Shown: positions 19,929 through 28,631 of the stretch, piece after piece
Layout: each line of letters opens with the position of its first letter
How positions within the stretch are numbered: position 1 is the stretch's first letter
Origin: Rhodanobacter lindaniclasticus
GTDB lineage: Bacteria > Pseudomonadota > Gammaproteobacteria > Xanthomonadales > Rhodanobacteraceae
Assembly: GCF_004799035.1 (NCBI RefSeq)
Contig: NZ_MWIO01000017.1
Coordinates: 1 to 64,000, forward strand
Reading direction: 5' to 3'
DNA: 64,000 nucleotides
The notes under the pieces: generated by a model
The model's database searches: none
Told to the model about the DNA's origin: nothing
Seen by the model: only the letters and a program-made list of their open reading frames with translations
Made by a program: the position numbers and the translations under genes

Positions 19929-20477
19929 ATGAGCAAGGCCGACACCACCTCCCGCTTCAAGGCGAAAGTGCTGCGCCCGGCGACACCGGACGATGCGGCG
20001 TGGGCCTTCGTGGTGCTGCCGCGGCCGGCGAGCGAGAAACTGCCGCGGCGCGGGCGCACCACGGTCGACGCCAGCATCAACGGCCACCGCTTCCAGGCCA
20101 CCCTGGAACCGGATGGCCAGTTGAGCCACTGGCTGAAGCTGGACCGCCGCCTGCTCGAGACCGCCCGCGTGCAGGCGGGCGACACCGTCGCGCTGCAGGT
20201 TGCACCGGTGAAGCGCGAGCCGGAGCCGGCGTTGCCGGCCGACCTGCGCAAGGCGCTGGACGCCATCCCTGTCGCCCGCGCCGGTTGGGATGCCACCACC
20301 ACGATCGCCCGTGTCGACTGGATCCACTGGATCGTTTCGGCCAAACAGGCGAAGACCCGTACGCAACGCGTCGTCGCCGCCTGCGACATGCTCGCCGCCG
20401 GCAAACGCCGCGTGTGCTGTTTCGATCCGTCGGGGTATTACAGCAAGGCGCTGGCCGCACCCGAAGCGGCGGAATAG
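19929..20477 (+). CDS. DUF1905/YdeI (OmpD-associated) family protein
   Basis: A 182-residue soluble protein. The N-terminal half is a DUF1905-like beta-barrel (RFKAKVLRPA, AWAFVVLP, VDASINGHRFQATLEPDG). The C-terminal half matches the YdeI/OmpD-associated helical region (LRKALDAIPVARAGWD, IHWIVSAKQAKTRTQRV). The family is widespread and without defined function. The start at ATG 19929 gives the expected family N-terminus; an upstream in-frame ATG would add a poor Arg-rich leader. It is divergent from the GTPase gene and is followed by a repeat-rich non-coding stretch. Confidence 0.85.
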   Translation: MSKADTTSRFKAKVLRPATPDDAAWAFVVLPRPASEKLPRRGRTTVDASINGHRFQATLEPDGQLSHWLKLDRRLLETARVQAGDTVALQVAPVKREPEPALPADLRKALDAIPVARAGWDATTTIARVDWIHWIVSAKQAKTRTQRVVAACDMLAAGKRRVCCFDPSGYYSKALAAPEAAE

Positions 20478-20508
20478 GGATCTCGACTGAATGGCACTTA
20501 CTTAAGCT

Positions 20509-20640
20509 CCGTTCGCCCTGAGCGCAGGCCGAAGGCCGAAGTCGAAGGCCGAAGTCGAAGGGCATGCCATCGATGAGATGATCCTCGCCTGGCGGCGCTT
20601 CGACTCCGCCCGCTGCGCGGGCTACGCTCAGCGAGAACGG
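20509..20640. repeat. Imperfect inverted repeat with a 13-bp tandem duplication
   Basis: The left end CCGTTCGCCCTGAGC and the right end GCTCAGCGAGAACGG (20626-20640) are complementary at 13 of 15 positions. Inner segments (GAAGTCGAAG against CTTCGACTCC) also pair. Within the left half GGCCGAAGTCGAA is duplicated in tandem at 20534-20546 and 20547-20559. It looks like a dispersed intergenic repeat of the kind common in GC-rich proteobacteria. Confidence 0.75.
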
Positions 20641-20709
20641 GGTAGGACGTCGGCCGGGCGACGTCAAGAAAGTGCCACGGATCTCGACCAGTTGCTCGCA
20701 ACTACCCAT

Positions 20710-20852
20710 GTCGTCACTCCGGCGAAGGCCGGAATCGCACTTCAACAGTGCAGCGAAGCATCGCGTGGGTCATGGTTGCCGGTTTCGCGATCCACGCGTG
20801 ACAGGACTCCTCATGGTTCAAGTGCGATTCCGGCCTTCGCCGGAATGACGAC
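20710..20852. repeat. 33-bp inverted repeat of the GGCGAAGGCCGGAAT type
   Basis: The arms at 20710-20742 and 20820-20852 are complementary at 32 of 33 positions around a 77-nt spacer. The arm core (CCGGCGAAGGCCGGAAT) is itself palindromic and resembles the widespread GTCATTCC...GGAATGAC repeats of proteobacteria. No transposase is nearby. Apart from this and the preceding repeat I see no gene in 20478-20956. Confidence 0.88.
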
Positions 20853-20956
20853 CAAGAGCGTCGCGGAGCGTGCGACGCGTCACCATTTGGCCGGTGCAAT
20901 GCTCGCCGCCTCGTACTCGATTTGGCATGATGGGGCAGATCGGGGGGAATCTGCGC

Positions 20957-21052
20957 ATGCTTGCATCGCTCATGTTGAGTGCGGTTCTGGCGGTGGCTGC
21001 GCCAGGATCGGTTGAATCATTGCAGGTGTTCATCGCGCCATTCATTCCCTGA
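20957..21052 (+). CDS. Putative 31-residue peptide with signal-like N-terminus
   Basis: A short open frame with a G-rich ribosome-site-like run (GGGGGG) 9-14 nt before the ATG. The product starts MLASLMLSAVLAVAAPGSV, which looks like a cleavable signal peptide, and ends in a short hydrophobic tail (LQVFIAPFIP). No homologue is recognised. It could equally be chance or a decayed gene: the region just upstream is repeat-derived. It lies 21 bp before the strong promoter of the micro-operon. Confidence 0.3.
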   Translation: MLASLMLSAVLAVAAPGSVESLQVFIAPFIP

Positions 21053-21073
21053 TTGATGGCGTTCCGCGGTCTG

Positions 21074-21103
21074 TTGACAGTGAGCTCGTTCTTGAGTTTT
21101 AAT
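21074..21103 (+). promoter_or_regulatory. Sigma-70-type promoter of the mini-ORF unit
   Basis: A perfect TTGACA -35 box (21074-21079), an 18-bp spacer and a TTTAAT -10 box (21098-21103; five of six matches). A start of transcription near 21110 would place the first ribosome site (GGAGAGG) almost at the 5' end of the RNA. It is one of the best promoter matches seen in this window. Confidence 0.7.
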
Positions 21104-21126
21104 GCTTTGAGGAGAGGCGACAAGTC

Positions 21127-21183
21127 ATGGAAGATAATGGGGGCTTTGTAATCAAAGTCAGTATTCAATTTAAGGAGGGATAG
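21127..21183 (+). CDS. 18-residue mini-ORF, first of a coupled pair
   Basis: Encodes MEDNGGFVIKVSIQFKEG. A GGAGAGG ribosome site lies about 9 nt upstream of the ATG, directly downstream of a near-consensus promoter. The last codons (AAG GAG GGA) form the ribosome site of the next mini-ORF, so translation of the two is probably coupled. Base composition is far richer in A/T than in the surrounding genes. No family is recognised. It may be a leader peptide whose translation controls the second peptide. Confidence 0.5.
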   Translation: MEDNGGFVIKVSIQFKEG

Positions 21184-21186
21184 ACT

Positions 21187-21255
21187 ATGTGGGACGCACT
21201 GCTTGGTCTTTTTGGCATTACTCCGAACAAAGTAGTTGACGGTCAGAAGGGATAA
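21187..21255 (+). CDS. 22-residue mini-ORF with amphipathic, hydrophobic N-terminus
   Basis: Encodes a peptide starting MWDALLGLFGI and ending NKVVDGQKG. A near-perfect ribosome site (AAGGAGGG) sits about 7 nt before the ATG and overlaps the end of the preceding mini-ORF. The stop codon TAA merges into the A-run of a strong intrinsic terminator. The N-terminal half could form a membrane-binding helix. There is no signal peptide and no recognised family. Candidate functions are a membrane-active or signalling peptide, or a regulatory small RNA that happens to be translated; none is established. Confidence 0.6.
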   Translation: MWDALLGLFGITPNKVVDGQKG

Positions 21256-21287
21256 AAAAACAGCCGCCATATTGGCGGCTGTTTTTT
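21255..21287 (+). terminator. Intrinsic terminator of the mini-ORF unit
   Basis: A perfect 15-bp stem (AAAAAACAGCCGCCA with its complement) around a TAT loop, the 3' arm ending in six T residues. It starts at the stop codon of the 22-residue peptide and would give an RNA of roughly 180 nt from the predicted promoter. It also isolates the downstream kinase gene from this transcript. Confidence 0.92.
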
Positions 21288-21383
21288 ATTGTCGATTTGT
21301 TTCTGCTATTGCATCCTAATTTTTAATTTATATTACCGTTTTGGCGGGTGACGCTTTACCTCGATGCCCGCAAGGAATTCGGC

Positions 21384-24300
21384 ATGTTGCCTGCAGTCTT
21401 GCTGGGCGTTGCTTGCGCGCTGTCTGCGATGTTTTCGGCGACGGCCGCGAGTACTGCAGCCATTCCGCCGTCATTGCGGGCCAGCGCGACCAACCCGCTG
21501 CCTACGCCGCAGTTTCGGCGTTACGACGTCGGCGACGGTCTGCCCGGTAGCACGGTCTACGCCGTAACCCAGGACAAGCAGGGCATCATGTGGTTTAGCG
21601 CCGGCGTCGATCTGGCGCGCTATGACGGCGTCGATTTCCAGATATTCAGGCATCATTCGAATGACCCGGCCTCATTGCCCGAGGGGCAGGTCTACAGCTT
21701 GTGCGTGGATCGGGATAATCGCTTGTGGGTGGGCGGATTCGGGTCCGGGCTCAGCCGTCGTGAATCCGGCGTCGAGGGGTTCTTGCATTGGCGTCATGAT
21801 CCGGCGGATTCAAAAAGCCTGTCCAGCGACAACGTTTGGTCGATTGCGCAGACGCCGGACGGTGATTTGTGGGTAGCCACGGATGCCGGACTCGATCGCC
21901 TCTTGCCTGACGGCCGGCATTTCGAGCACGTGAGCAATCCGCTCGGCTCCAACCCGGCCGCGGGTTTTGGCGCCGTGCGCGCATTGCTGGCCGAACCAGG
22001 CGGGAGATTGTGGATCGGTTCCAGCCAGGGTGTATTCGTACGCGAAGCGGACGGCAGTGTGCACGCGGTGACCATCGATCCGCGCGTACATGCCCTGAAA
22101 GTATGGCGAATCCAGGGTGGCGGCGACGATGTTCGAATCGCCGTGCGCGGCGGCCTGTTGCGGGTGGGCGCTGATCGCGTGGCGCGGCTGTATGCACCCG
22201 CGCAGATTCCCTCCATCGATGTGTACAGCAGTACCGTGGACCAGGCCGGTCATTTGTGGATCGCCACCCGCAACGGCCTGTATCTGGACGATGGCGGTCC
22301 CCATATCCACGTGATTGCAGGTCAGCCGCTCCTGCTGGGCAGCCTGCCGGGTCAGCAGGTTTGGCAATCGTTTTGTGACAGCGAGGGCGGGTTGTGGTTC
22401 GTCATGGGCGATGGCGGCATCGCCTATCTCGCACCCGGCTGGAACCAGTTCACCCGCTTCACGCATGTTCCCGACGATCCCCACAGCTTGCGCGGCAATG
22501 CCACGACCTCCGTGTTGGCTGCTTCCGATGGTTGGTTGTGGGTCGGCGAGCATGGTCTCGTCGACAAACTTGACCCCACCACCGGGGAAGTACGGCATCT
22601 GATCTCGGGCTTGCACGGGGACGTGCTGGACATGGCGGAGGACGGGCGGCAGCGTTTGTGGATTGCCAGCGAGGCAGGTGTCTATCGGTACGCCGACGGG
22701 AAATTGGCCGAAGTGGACCTGGCCGCGATCGGGGCTGCTCATCCTCGCCGGGTGAGTTTGGGACCGGATGGGCGGATGTATCTGGTGTCGATCCACGACG
22801 GCCTGTTTCGCATCGACCCCGACACGCTCACGGTGGACCCCAAGCCGCTGGCGTCGGCTGACGACACGGGTTTCGTAGGCAATCGTCTGACGCCTTACAA
22901 CAGCCTGGACTGGTACGCCGATCAGGAGCGACTGATGCGGTGGAATGCCGTGCAAGGGAAGCCCGAAGCGATAGATGGCCTGTCGGACGAAGGCTACATC
23001 TACGCACTCGAATTCACGGCGGACGGATTCTGGGCAGCGCGCGGCAAGATGTTCGAGCACTATCGGACGGAAAGTGGCAAGGTGATACGCGATCAGTTGG
23101 TGAAGATCCCGCCGAACTGGCCGTCGATGGTGCTGATCGCATTTCATGTCGATCGGCTGGGGAGGTTCTGGTTGTTCTGCAAGAACGGCCTGTGGATGTT
23201 CGATCCCCACCAGGGCGAGCTGAAATCCTTCGGCTTGCGCAATGGTCTGGTCAATGGAGAGGTTCGAGGTGATTCCCCGACCATCACGGCCGATGGCACG
23301 ATTTACGTCGCCAGCCTGGGCGGTGTGTTTGGTTTCCAACCCGATCGCATGGCGATCAAACCTCGGCCAACTCAGGTGGTCATTACCGGCGCAACCGTGC
23401 GCCATCATGGTGTCATCCAGGAGCTGACGATTGGGACGGAACCGATCCGGTTGGCGTGGAATGATCGCGAATTGCGGGTCGAGGCTCGTTTGAGTTCCTA
23501 TGTGGATCCGACCGCCAATCGTTACCGTTTCCGCCTGCTCGGATTCGACACCGACTGGGTAAATACTGGAAATCATGGTGAACGTGAGTTTGCCGGACTG
23601 GGCGCTGGCACCTACCGGCTGGAGGTGATGGCTGCGGGTGCGGATGGTGACTGGAGCACGCTGGTGACGCCATTGCAGCTTCATGTCGACGCCCCGCCGT
23701 GGGCGCGCTGGTGGGCGTGGCTCGGCTACGTGCTGCTGGTGGCGGCGGTGGTCGGGCTGGCGTTGCGCAGCTGGCGGCGGCGACTGGCGCAGCGCCACCA
23801 GATCCAGCTGGCCGAGCAGCAGCGGCAGATGGCCGAGGCCGCCAGCGCGGCCAAGACCCAGTTCCTGGCCACGCTGAGCCACGAGATCCGCACGCCGATG
23901 ACCGGCGTGATGGGCATGGCCGAGCTGCTGCTGAGCACGCCGCTCGACCCGCTGCAGCACGACTACACCCGCGCCATGCAACGCTCCGGCACGATGCTGC
24001 TGAAGCTGCTCAACGATGCGCTCGACTTGGCCCGCATCGAGGCCGGCAAGCTGGAGCTGGAGCCGGCGCCGTTCAGCCCGCGCCAGTTGCTGGAGGACGT
24101 GGCGCAGCTGGAGCAGGGCCTGGCGCACGCGCGCGGCATCCGCTTCGTGCTGGAGGTGGCCGACGACCTCCCCGCGCAGGTCGTCGGCGACGCCGTGCGC
24201 ATCAAGCAGGTGCTGCTGAACCTGGCCAACAACGCGCTCAAGTTCACCGAGCGCGGCCACGTGACCTTGCGCGGCGAACGCATCGCCGACGGCCTGCTGT

Positions 24301-24947
24301 TCGGCGTCAGCGACACCGGGCCGGGCATACCCGAGGCGAGCCAGGCGCGCTTGTTCCAGCGCTTCGAGCAGGCCGACGGTCCGCAGCGCCAGGCCGGCAG
24401 CGGCCTGGGCCTGGCGATCTGCCGCGAACTGGTGGACATGATGGGCGGCAGCATCGAGCTGGAATCGCGCGTGGGCCACGGCAGCACCTTCCGCGTGCGC
24501 CTGCCGCTGGTCGAACCGGCCAAGCCGGCGCCGCTGCCGGCGCCGGCCGCCGACGGCCGCCGCTACCACCTGCTGCTGGTGGAGGACGACACCATCGTGG
24601 CCGCGGTCATCCGCGGCCTGCTCGAACGCGAAGGCCACCAGGTGGTGCACGTAATCAACGGATTGGCCGCGCTGGCCGAGCTGGCGCATGCCAGCTTCGA
24701 CGCGGTGCTGCTGGACCTGGACCTGCCCGGCGTGGACGGCTTCCAGATCGCGCGGCTGATCCGCCAGCGCGAACCCGATGGCCGCCACCTGCCGATCATC
24801 GCGGTCACCGCCCGCTCCGGCGGCCGCGACGAGGCGCGCGCGCGCGAGGCCGGCATGGACGGCTTCCTGCGCAAGCCGGTCAGCGGCGAGCAACTGGCCG
24901 GTGCGCTGGCCCGGGTCCTCACCTCGGCGAGCGATGCCACGGCCTGA
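21384..24947 (+). CDS. Propeller-type hybrid sensor histidine kinase (paralogue 1)
   Basis: A hybrid two-component kinase of 1187 residues. It begins with a signal peptide ([19 protein letters not shown]). A periplasmic two-propeller sensor of Reg_prop-type repeats follows ([15 protein letters not shown] and related WxG/WIG repeats, about 45-680), then a Y_Y_Y domain (about 690-760), a transmembrane helix (about 775-795), HisKA with phospho-accepting His833 in LSHEIRTPM, HATPase ([28 protein letters not shown]) and a C-terminal receiver domain with Asp1111. There is no DNA-binding or HPt output domain. GTG at 21348 is an alternative start; 21384 has AAGGAA upstream and gives the signal peptide. 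The sensor half has clearly lower third-position GC than the kinase half. Confidence 0.95.
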
Positions 24948-25082: not shown

Positions 25083-28000
25083 ATGTTTTCGGCAGCCTTG
25101 CTGACCCTGGCCCTCGGGCTGGTTACGCCCGCATCCGGCGTGCCGGCAACTCCGGTTGCCGTGACGCAAGCCGATCCGCTGCCGACGCCGCAGTTCCGGC
25201 GCTACGACACCTCGGACGGCTTGCCCAGCACCAATGTCTACGCCGTGGCGCAGGATCGCAAAGGCGCGATCTGGTTCGGCACCAAGGGCGGCCTGGCGCG
25301 CTTCGACGGCGTCGGTTTCACGGTGTTCCGGCATGCCGAGAACGATCCGGGCTCGCTGTACGCCAACGGCATTGCCACGCTGATGGTCGATCGCCGGGGA
25401 CGCCTGTGGGCCGCCGGCCTGAATGCAGGCCTGAACCGCTACGACGAGGCCAGCGGCAGCTTCCGGCACTGGGGGCACCACCCGACTGACCCAGCCAGTC
25501 TGTCCAGCGACCGGGTCTGGGCGGTCGCGCAAACCGCCGACGGCAGCCTGTGGGTGGGTAGTGCCGGCGGACTCGACCGCATGCACCCGGACGAGCGCGG
25601 CTTCGAGCACGTGGCCGACCCGCAGCTCGGCGCCACGCCCGCCGCGGTCGGCACCGTTGCCGCGCTGTATGTGGACGGACGCGGACGGCTGTGGATCGGC
25701 AGCAGCCACGGCGTGTTCGTGCGCGAGACGGACGGCGCGATCCGCCGCGTGCCGTCGACCGAGCCGCAGCGAACCATCGACGCGTGGCGGATCGACGGCA
25801 GCGGCGACGAAGTGCGCATCGCCGCCACCGACGGCCTGTGGATCGTCGACGCGGATGGCGTGGCGCGCCGCTTCGGCACTGGCGTGATTCCCCGCACCAA
25901 CGTGATGGGCAGCGTGCGCGACAGCGCCGGTCGCCTGTGGGTCGGCACGCAGAAGGGACTGTTCCTGCAGGCACGCACCGATGGGCCGGTGACGGCGGTG
26001 ACCAACCAGCCGGTGCTCTACGGCAATCTGCCGGGCGCCTGGGTGTGGCAGCTGATGGTGGATCGCGAAGGCGGCCTGTGGGCCGCGTTGTTCGATGGCG
26101 GCGTGGCCTATCTGGCGCCGGGCTGGAACCACTTCAGCCGCTTCACTCATTTGCCGGACGATCCGTCCAGCCTGCGCGACGCGATCGCCACCACGATGGC
26201 GCGCGGCAAGGACGGTCGCCACGTGTGGGTGGGCCAGCGCGGCGGCCGGGTCGACCGGCTCGATCCGGTGACCGGCACGGTCGAACACGTGCTGTCGGGT
26301 CTGCGCGGCGACGTGGTGGGCCTGACCGAGGACGCGAAGCAGCGCCTGTGGGTGGTCGTGCAGGGCGCGCTGTACCGCGACACCGACGGGCGGCTCGACC
26401 GGGTCGACCCGGCGGGCGCGCTGCTGCAGCGGCCGCTGGAGGTCGAGTCCGGGCCGGACGGCCAGATGTATGCGCGCACCTTCGGCCAGGGCCTGTTCCG
26501 CATCGACCCGGAGACGCTGGCGGTCCAGCCGGTGCCGATGGACGGCTCCAGCGACAAGGTGCGCTGGGGCAGCCAGATGACGCTGCACGACGGCGCCTTC
26601 TGGTACGCCAGCGACGGCGGCATGATGTGGCTGGACACCACGCGGGGCCGTTTCGTGATGGTGCCGGGCGGGCCGACCGGGCAGTCCGTCGATGCCTTCG
26701 ATTTCACCGCCGACGGCCTGTGGATGGCCAATGCCGACGGACTGGTCCACTACCGCCGCGGCGGCGACGGCATCGTGGCCGATCGCCGGGTCGACGCCGC
26801 GCATGGCTGGCCCTCGGTCAACGTCACCGACCTGCGCGTCGATGCCGCCGGCCGGGTCTGGGTATTCGGCCACGATGGTCTGTGGCGGTTCGAACCGGAC
26901 ACCGGCGCATTCCGTTCGTTCGGTCTGCAGGACGGCCTGACCAACGGCGAGTTCTTCCGCGGCTACGCGCGGATGCCCAGCGGCTACATCTACGCCGCCA
27001 CCCTGGGCGGCGTGGTGGCGTTCAACCCGGACCGCAGCAACCGGCAGACCAGCGTGCCGCAGATGGCGCTCACCCAGGCCCGGGTGCGTCATCGCGGCGC
27101 CACCCAGGTACTGCCGATCGGCACGCCGCCCCTGCACATGGACTGGCACGACAGCCAGCTCGCGATCGAGGCGCGGGTGTTTTCCTACATTGCGCCGTCC
27201 GCCAACCGCTACCGCTTCCGGCTGCACGGCTTCGACAGCGACTGGGTGGACACCGGCAACCGCGGCGAGCGTGATTTCAGCGGGCTGGGTGCCGGCGACT
27301 ACACGCTCGACGTGAAGGCCGCCGGCGCCGACGGCCTGTGGGTGCAACTGGCCACGCCACTGCGCATCCACGTCGAGGCACCACCGTGGCTGCGCTGGTG
27401 GGCGTGGGCCGTCTACGTGCTGCTGGGTACGGCGCTGGCGGCTCTGATCCTGCATGCCTGGCGCCGACGCCTGGCGCAGCGCCACCAGATCCAGCTGGCC
27501 GAACAACAGCGGCAGATGGCGGAAGCGGCCAGCGCGGCGAAGACGCAGTTCCTGGCCACCTTGAGCCACGAGATCCGCACCCCGATGACCGGCGTGATGG
27601 GCATGGCCGAGCTGCTGTTGAGCACGCCGCTGAACCCGCAGCAGCACGACTACACGCAGGCGATGCAGCGCTCCGGCGGCATGCTGCTGAAACTGCTCAA
27701 CGATGCGCTGGACCTGGCGCGGATCGAGGCTGGCCGGCTGGAGCTGGAGCCGGCGCCGTTCAGTCCGCGCCAGCTGCTGGAGGACGTGGCGCAGCTGGAG
27801 CAGGGTCTGGCCCACGCCAGGGGCATCCGCTTCGAGCTGGCGCTGGGCGACGACCTGCCGGCACAACTGCTCGGCGACGCGGTGCGGATCAAGCAGATCC
27901 TGCTGAACCTGGCCAACAATGCCCTGAAATTCACCGAGCACGGCAGCGTCAAGCTGAGCGCGCAGCGCACCGCCGACGGTTTGCGGTTCGTCGTCAGCGA

Positions 28001-28631
28001 CACCGGGCCGGGCATCCCCGAGGCCAGCCAGGCGCGCTTGTTCCAACGCTTCGAGCAGGCCGATGGCCCGCAGCGTTCGGCCGGCAGCGGCCTGGGCCTG
28101 GCGATCTGCCGCGAGCTGGTGGACATGATGGGCGGCAGCATCGAGCTGGAATCGCGCGTAGGCCACGGCAGCACCTTCCGCGTGCACCTGCCGCTGGCCG
28201 AACCGCCGGCCGACGCGCCGCCGCCGACCGGCGCCGCCCGCAGCTACCGCTTGCTGCTGGTGGAGGACGACACCATCGTGGCGGTGGTGATCCGGGGCCT
28301 GCTGGAGCGCGAAGGCCACGCGGTGGTGCACGTGATCAACGGGTTGGCCGCGCTGGCCGAGCTGGCGCACGTAAGTTTCGACGCCGTGCTGCTGGACCTG
28401 GACCTGCCCGGTGTCGACGGCTTCCAGATCGCACGGCTGATCCGCCAGCGCGAACCCGACGGCAGCCGCCTGCCGATCATCGCGGTCACCGCCCGTTCCG
28501 GCGGTCGCGACGAGACACTGGCCCGCGAGGCCGGCATGGACGGCTTCCTGCGCAAACCGGTCAGCGGTGAGCAATTGGTGGCGGCCCTGGCGCGCGTCCT
28601 GGCGACGCCGGAGGCGGTGCTGCCGGAATGA
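25083..28631 (+). CDS. Propeller-type hybrid sensor histidine kinase (paralogue 2)
   Basis: An 1182-residue paralogue of the preceding gene, 135 bp downstream. It has the same order: signal peptide (MFSAALLTLALGLV), Reg_prop propellers, Y_Y_Y domain, transmembrane helix, HisKA with His829, HATPase and receiver domain with Asp1105. From the transmembrane segment onward the two proteins are close to 90 percent identical by eye; their sensors are much more divergent. Unlike paralogue 1 it is uniformly GC-rich. Reg_prop/Y_Y_Y sensors in other bacteria detect polysaccharide breakdown products, which is only a possible analogy here. The terminal receiver must pass phosphate to a partner not encoded in this window. 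Confidence 0.95.
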   Translation: MFSAALLTLALGLVTPASGVPATPVAVTQADPLPTPQFRRYDTSDGLPSTNVYAVAQDRKGAIWFGTKGGLARFDGVGFTVFRHAENDPGSLYANGIATLMVDRRGRLWAAGLNAGLNRYDEASGSFRHWGHHPTDPASLSSDRVWAVAQTADGSLWVGSAGGLDRMHPDERGFEHVADPQLGATPAAVGTVAALYVDGRGRLWIGSSHGVFVRETDGAIRRVPSTEPQRTIDAWRIDGSGDEVRIAATDGLWIVDADGVARRFGTGVIPRTNVMGSVRDSAGRLWVGTQKGLFLQARTDGPVTAVTNQPVLYGNLPGAWVWQLMVDREGGLWAALFDGGVAYLAPGWNHFSRFTHLPDDPSSLRDAIATTMARGKDGRHVWVGQRGGRVDRLDPVTGTVEHVLSGLRGDVVGLTEDAKQRLWVVVQGALYRDTDGRLDRVDPAGALLQRPLEVESGPDGQMYARTFGQGLFRIDPETLAVQPVPMDGSSDKVRWGSQMTLHDGAFWYASDGGMMWLDTTRGRFVMVPGGPTGQSVDAFDFTADGLWMANADGLVHYRRGGDGIVADRRVDAAHGWPSVNVTDLRVDAAGRVWVFGHDGLWRFEPDTGAFRSFGLQDGLTNGEFFRGYARMPSGYIYAATLGGVVAFNPDRSNRQTSVPQMALTQARVRHRGATQVLPIGTPPLHMDWHDSQLAIEARVFSYIAPSANRYRFRLHGFDSDWVDTGNRGERDFSGLGAGDYTLDVKAAGADGLWVQLATPLRIHVEAPPWLRWWAWAVYVLLGTALAALILHAWRRRLAQRHQIQLAEQQRQMAEAASAAKTQFLATLSHEIRTPMTGVMGMAELLLSTPLNPQQHDYTQAMQRSGGMLLKLLNDALDLARIEAGRLELEPAPFSPRQLLEDVAQLEQGLAHARGIRFELALGDDLPAQLLGDAVRIKQILLNLANNALKFTEHGSVKLSAQRTADGLRFVVSDTGPGIPEASQARLFQRFEQADGPQRSAGSGLGLAICRELVDMMGGSIELESRVGHGSTFRVHLPLAEPPADAPPPTGAARSYRLLLVEDDTIVAVVIRGLLEREGHAVVHVINGLAALAELAHVSFDAVLLDLDLPGVDGFQIARLIRQREPDGSRLPIIAVTARSGGRDETLAREAGMDGFLRKPVSGEQLVAALARVLATPEAVLPE

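Follow-up and report, generated by a model that had tools for sequence, protein, structure and literature searches.

A probable 22-residue small-protein gene with its own promoter and terminator beside hybrid histidine kinases in Rhodanobacter

The stretch of DNA considered here, referred to as the window, comprises 64,000 nucleotides of Rhodanobacter lindaniclasticus (contig NZ_MWIO01000017.1). Between the remnant of one kinase gene and the likely start of another lies a small island, which holds a compact unit made of a promoter, two short open reading frames (ORF1 and ORF2) with their ribosome sites, and an intrinsic terminator. These elements are read directly from the sequence, at the positions given below together with their neighbours.

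20889 to 21009, forward strand: kinase 5' remnant, with the TTTGGCATGATG motif, a ribosome site and the signal-peptide start MLASLMLSAVLAVAAPGS
21010 to 21383, no strand: island of GC 0.444 that runs from the kinase remnant to where kinA probably starts and holds the unit
21074 to 21103, forward strand: promoter, TTGACA (21074-21079), 18-bp spacer, TTTAAT (21098-21103), an 11/12 match
21127 to 21183, forward strand: ORF1, 18 codons, MEDNGGFVIKVSIQFKEG
21172 to 21178, forward strand: ORF2 ribosome site (AAGGAGG), within the last codons of ORF1 and 8 nt ahead of the ATG
21187 to 21255, forward strand: ORF2, putative gene of a 22-residue small protein, MWDALLGLFGITPNKVVDGQKG, with homologues in genomes G030 and G018
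21255 to 21287, forward strand: intrinsic terminator, perfect 15-bp stem with a 3-nt loop, the outer pairs formed by an A run and a T run
21384 to 24947, forward strand: kinA, first hybrid histidine kinase (Pfam), its start set by eye at the ATG before the signal peptide
25083 to 28631, forward strand: kinB, second hybrid histidine kinase (Pfam), the intact neighbour of the unit in G018

Two relatives of the unit were found, in G030 and in G018 (Rhodanobacter MAG RXF3), and both belong to other species of the genus. Their promoters stand at the same place, reading TTGACA-18-TCCAAT in G030 and TTGACG-18-TTAAAT in G018, each with a poorer -10 element (4/6 of the consensus). The ribosome site of ORF2 is a shorter match in G030 and G018, lying 7 and 9 nt from the ATG. 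The single promoter would be expected to yield a transcript of about 180 nt. A joint scan of both strands of the 64 kb, which required a promoter of at least 11/12 and, no more than 250 bp further on, a T-tailed stem of 11 bp or longer, returned a single place, which is the unit. The same scan was negative in randomised sequence, both for the window (10 first-order Markov copies) and for the 870-bp gap (300 copies). A ready-made scan run over 20450-21400 listed neither a promoter nor a terminator, and it requires an A at position 2 of the -10 element, where the unit has a T. The unit has a GC content of 0.43, the window one of 0.69. An earlier note, made from the letters of this DNA, had described the promoter, both frames, their ribosome sites and the terminator, had placed the ORF2 ribosome site in the last ORF1 codons, and had called the unit AT-rich; all of this agrees with our reading.

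The unit has a narrow distribution. With the window unit as a DNA query, 83 of 100 related genomes gave some match at E up to 10; G030 was the sole clear relative (E 1.6e-16), the next match (1.3e-5) covers the terminator only, and G018 was missed. A profile of ORF2 built from the window and G030 peptides gave some match at E up to 10 in 201 of 233 genomes of the family. Three matches lie below E 1e-13, of which the window and G030 match their own profile by construction, and the full-length G018 peptide scores 3.1e-14. The next best (E 0.004) is partial and lies inside a 687-codon frame that resembles the end of what we take to be a transketolase. Used as a DNA query at E up to 0.001, the G030 unit found matches in 3 of 45 genus genomes, and restricting the set to the 38 genomes of 90% completeness or more again gives 3. 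No match to the unit was seen in the other 42 of 45 (35 of 38), and the unit is therefore dispensable. A sequence-only model of the unit matched 45 of the 233 family genomes at E up to 0.1, end to end only in the three copies from which it was built and which match by construction; the remaining 42 matches are partial, at E 0.0015 or worse and mostly at the terminator end, and strict filters may lose weak matches.

Among 398 genomes of the order, a sample in which G018 gives no match, there were 2 matches at E up to 0.001, and among 369 genomes of the class there were 3, two of them unrelated longer frames. The matches in G720 and G818 (E 4e-5 to 6e-4) lie inside frames of 152-153 codons and were judged unrelated. 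The genome_contigs collection, which may leave out the window's own genome, was scanned for VVDGQKG followed by a stop or TGG, a pattern blind to homologues with another end. Nine stretches were returned, of which only one, on a G018 contig (L069), shows the rest of the peptide and carries an identical unit; G030 is absent from the nine. DNA searches of plasmids and of phages gave two lists of 5 records, with 9 of the 10 matches at the terminator, and the peptide searches of plasmids and phages (the latter by tblastn) gave no match. Pattern scans of viral_contigs gave one unrelated stretch and 85 further stretches, none of which was confirmed; L148, one of 2 viral pattern stretches of another scan, lies inside a long protein and is unrelated. 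A phage gene was rejected as an identity for ORF2, with 0 matches in PHROGs, 0 by phage tblastn and no relative in two viral_contigs scans.

The two reading frames of the unit have changed in different ways. In ORF1, the three copies agree only at the start (ATGGA-GA). Compared without gaps over 18 codons, its synonymous to replacement codons number 1:13, 2:15 and 2:14 in the three pairs, the last being G030-G018. Its exit also differs from copy to copy: the window frame has 18 codons and stops 3 nt before ORF2, the G018 frame has 26 codons and overlaps ORF2, and the G030 frame has 94 codons, running through ORF2 and beyond the terminator. The two ATGs are 60, 59 and 61 apart in the three copies. 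The ribosome site of ORF1 (AGGAG) lies far from its ATG, at 12 nt in the window and 14 and 15 nt in the relatives. In favour of ORF1 stand its shared start and its ungapped amino-acid scores, which lie somewhat above those of random change, with P of 0.011, 0.045 and 0.027 for three pairs that are not independent. Judged on these comparisons, ORF1 appears to be under no purifying selection and not to be a conserved gene; it would be, at most, a non-conserved upstream reading frame over the ribosome site of ORF2. The earlier note had proposed that the unit encodes two coupled micro-peptides. The expression-ready unit and its second peptide stand, and the peptide pair was rejected as a conserved feature, with 13-15 replacements against 1-2 synonymous changes in ORF1 and an end that is not kept.

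ORF2 behaves otherwise. The three peptides are MWDALLGLFGITPNKVVDGQKG (window), MLDALAEFFGITAFKVVDGQKG and MLEALAEFFGITAFKVVDGQKG, and their last eight residues, KVVDGQKG, are identical in 3/3 copies. Between G030 and G018, the changes at codon positions 1, 2 and 3 number 1/0/7, with 7 synonymous to 1 replacement, which is the outcome of a check that the earlier note had suggested, namely conservation of the second peptide with third-position change. The window differs from G030 by 5/4/9 (6 synonymous to 6 replacement) and from G018 by 4/4/10 (7 to 7), and the replacements in these window pairs all fall in the first 14 residues. The amino-acid score of the G030-G018 pair was reached by 6e-5 of simulated stop-free copies carrying an equal number of random changes; the corresponding shares are 0.013 for window-G030 and 0.033 for window-G018. 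Counting against the gene are the equal numbers of replacement and synonymous codons in the window pairs, the poorer -10 elements of the relatives, and a base of three sequences from one genus. Evolution of the coding type, as expected of a small-protein gene (at most 50 aa), is seen in ORF2 and is lacking in ORF1. Because the changes in ORF2 follow codons and those in ORF1 do not, the unit is best read as holding one small-protein gene, not two coupled peptides, and ORF2 is very probably a genuine gene of this kind. As far as sequence can tell, the promoter, ribosome site and terminator are kept together with ORF2, and the ORF1 region and the flanking DNA differ. Annotation does not normally look for genes as small as this one of 22 residues, which carries a promoter and a terminator of its own, and its coding nature can be read here from comparison alone.

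The unit might instead work as a regulatory RNA in which ORF2 is incidental. The expected transcripts do fold better than their shuffles, with z of -2.96 in the window, -1.86 in G030 and -3.16 in G018, part of which the terminator contributes. This reading is nevertheless improbable: the change pattern of ORF2 follows codons, the interval from promoter to ORF2 is the least conserved part, and Rfam gives 0 matches at gathering score in the window. The three-row RNAalifold consensus, in which 16 of 76 pairs are changed on both sides in some row, also speaks against it, as it pairs promoter DNA outside the expected transcript. This consensus, which pairs promoter DNA with the ORF2 ribosome site, was not taken as an RNA structure, since it is built on three rows and its 5' arm lies before the expected transcript start.

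As a protein, ORF2 falls outside the families searched. It is without a match in Pfam, PHROGs or NCBIfam, as the earlier note had supposed in stating that no known family fits. Pfam gave 0 families for 3/3 members up to E 10, a setting in which the HMMER filters may drop so short a match, and the ORF2 profile, run against PDB sequences, found a single match, at E 0.88. In a literature search, the starts of the abstracts contained no account of the unit. The small-protein gene is very probably real; it is unnamed and narrow in its distribution.

The invariant end of ORF2 has a likeness elsewhere. KVVDGQKG (21229-21252; FKVVDGQKG in G030 and G018) recurs without a single difference in one cold-shock protein from each of the three genomes, the matching G030 protein carrying the Pfam CSD domain at E 1.9e-28, and many of the other weak matches of the ORF2 profile fall in cold-shock proteins. 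The local score between ORF2 and the cold-shock protein was reached by 2 of 5000 shuffles for the window peptide and by 0 for the other two. In 1.3 million residues, about 1e-4 chance matches are expected for any G018 9-mer and 0.012 for any window 8-mer, figures that are post hoc and use the rough composition of four window proteins. ORF2 itself was rejected as a cold-shock protein: at 22 aa it is without the rest of the fold, and none of its three members has a CSD match or any other in Pfam up to E 10. The shared octapeptide may reflect descent from a fragment of a cold-shock gene, mimicry, or chance. A reading that includes a free peptide acting a second time, in trans, as a mimic of cold-shock proteins has little probability in our estimation.

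The neighbourhood of the unit is that of membrane-bound kinases. The domains of kinA and kinB are Reg_prop, Y_Y_Y, HisKA, HATPase_c and Response_reg; the earlier note's pair of sensor kinases after the unit is present, and is refined to hybrid kinases. Of 45 genus genomes, 43 have such a kinase. All three copies of the unit lie in a locus running from a GTPase gene to hybrid kinases, with one copy inverted. The order in G030 is GTPase, unit, kinA, kinB, and the window has the same with an extra gene. In G018 the order is GTPase, kinase remnant (N-terminal and C-terminal pieces), inverted unit, kinB; this is a metagenome assembly, in which a misjoin is possible. The G018 kinase gene at L033 1141-1380 has a large internal deletion, has lost its 3' end and adjoins the inverted unit, which reflects a rearrangement or an assembly fault. 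Among 57 targets at the kinase locus (55 fetched, which is not every match, and the two known), only the two known hold the unit, and G012 has the kinA type without it. The GTPase and kinase genes are adjacent without the unit in 31 loci, 30 of them at 344-562 bp from match to match and one at 941 bp with an intervening gene. An OmdA/DUF1905 gene (19929-20477 in the window) lies between GTPase and kinase in the window and in G028, and the other 30 loci have no room for it.

The remnant in front of the unit, a promoter region with the beginning of a signal peptide, points to allele exchange in this tandem hybrid-kinase locus. Positions 20889-21009 match the beginning of the G028 gene for the first kinase at 108 of 121 bases (89%), a stretch that takes in the signal peptide, and the similarity ends at 21009. 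The identity of kinA is 80.3% to G030, 79.2% to G012 and 63.5% to G028, and that of kinB to G028 is 92.3%. From the 5' remnant and these identities, it follows that the resident kinase allele most likely gave way to a different one that carried the unit at its front. On sequence grounds, the unit and kinA most likely arrived together; separate arrivals of the island and of kinA are also possible. The unit could then be a decaying passenger of this allele exchange, without present function. Its occurrence is patchy, and broken kinase genes adjoin it in the window and in G018. We consider this improbable, however, as ORF2, the promoter and the terminator survive in all three copies and the neighbouring DNA does not.

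The position of the terminator raises the question of cis action. In the three copies, the first C of the stem comes just 5 (window), 6 and 12 nt after the ORF2 stop, within the reach of a ribosome, so near that translation of ORF2 could control the next gene. ORF2 would then be a leader peptide, in which a ribosome at the stop covers the foot of the hairpin and the polymerase reads on into kinA; translation, or a ligand-dependent stall at the KVVDGQKG-stop end, would set the level of the kinase. Passages of one study report that an E. coli terminator, when moved to 5 bp after a translated gene, dropped from about 90% to less than 10% efficiency, and that terminators in the first 100 bp of a coding region are efficient (PMC4824070). 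The former suits a leader; the latter, together with the shortness of ORF2, does not. The motif TTTGGCA(C/T)NA, which could be an extended -10 promoter or an operator, lies upstream of the first kinase in 30 of the 31 unit-free loci and also at 20920-20932 of the window; in the interval from the unit to kinA, the window has an altered form of it (TTTTGGCGGGTGA) and G030 has none, which again favours a leader, as does the C-terminal end being the most conserved part of the peptide. That TTTGGCA overlaps the ORF2 codons of FGIT was put down to chance. In leader-peptide attenuators of the pyrBI type, the leader frame ends within ribosome reach of a terminator that precedes a sense gene; here the spacing from stop to stem is 5, 6 and 12 nt in 3/3 copies, and a gene in the sense direction follows in 2/3, the window and G030 having kinA immediately after the unit and in its orientation. 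In G018, where the unit is inverted, read-through would only give antisense RNA of the kinase remnant, which argues against cis action on a kinase as the sole role. Furthermore, a simple coupling attenuator needs no conserved amino acids, and no antiterminator structure was identified. A leader peptide is on balance unlikely, though less so than the other rivals.

In having a short frame before a structural gene and a conserved end reaching the stop codon, ORF2 resembles the TnaC and pyrBI leaders; it differs from them in that the G018 unit has no sense gene after it. ORF2 carries NKVVD where TnaC (sequence from NC_000913) has NKIVD, a weak similarity whose score is reached by 1.8, 2.9 and 1.7% of shuffles for the three peptides. 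TnaC was rejected as an identity: with NK set on NK by eye, W12 faces F9, D16 faces P13 or A13, and P24 faces K21, so that Trp12, Asp16 and Pro24 have no counterpart, and the downstream gene is a kinase instead of the tna operon.

The composition of the peptide bears on its possible action. Over residues 1-17, the mean Eisenberg hydrophobicity is 0.46-0.54 and the hydrophobic moment a modest 0.23-0.24; a predicted helix would be short, carrying D3 or E3 and K15. The hydrophobic, short N-terminal half, in a small stand-alone unit of patchy distribution, recalls a membrane-active, type I-like toxic peptide, whose expression would be kept low by an antisense RNA or its own leader. For such a toxin, however, the hydrophobic stretch is short, the net charge is 0 or -1, and the invariant part is the polar end. 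There is no promoter on the opposite strand at the scan threshold of at least 11/12, and no second promoter at this level in the window from which the antisense RNA of a type I toxin-antitoxin pair could start. A toxin of this kind seems improbable.

The explanation that we find best is a free-standing small-protein gene whose product acts in trans, most likely on a neighbouring kinase; we regard it as about evenly balanced between right and wrong. Of its parts, action in trans by the ORF2 protein comes slightly short of an even chance, and the neighbouring kinase as its target is a tentative proposal that we hold to be possible but rather doubtful. Residues 1-17 would lie at the inner membrane as a hydrophobic helix, a short one, with the polar end that never varies (KVVDGQKG) serving as contact surface, and the protein would tune the membrane-bound hybrid kinase beside it, like the small kinase regulators. 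It is the place beside membrane hybrid kinases that suggests a kinase regulator, and the evidence for the link consists of this neighbourhood in three species and the hydrophobic N-terminal half. The inverted G018 unit beside a kinase remnant does not favour a fixed link to kinA. E. coli offers a likeness in MgrB (47 aa), which is described in part of a published account as inhibiting PhoQ (PMC8404706), a small protein being tied there to a membrane sensor kinase. ORF2 differs in having 22 aa instead of 47, and the kinases here are hybrid Reg_prop kinases; the likeness comes from neighbourhood, not from a comparison of sequences. With ORF2, Rhodanobacter provides a concrete, testable candidate for a small-protein gene beside hybrid kinases.

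In the gap 5' of the unit, inverted repeats around CCGGCGAAGGCCGGAATC were seen by eye at 20700-20850, probably representing a small repeat element.
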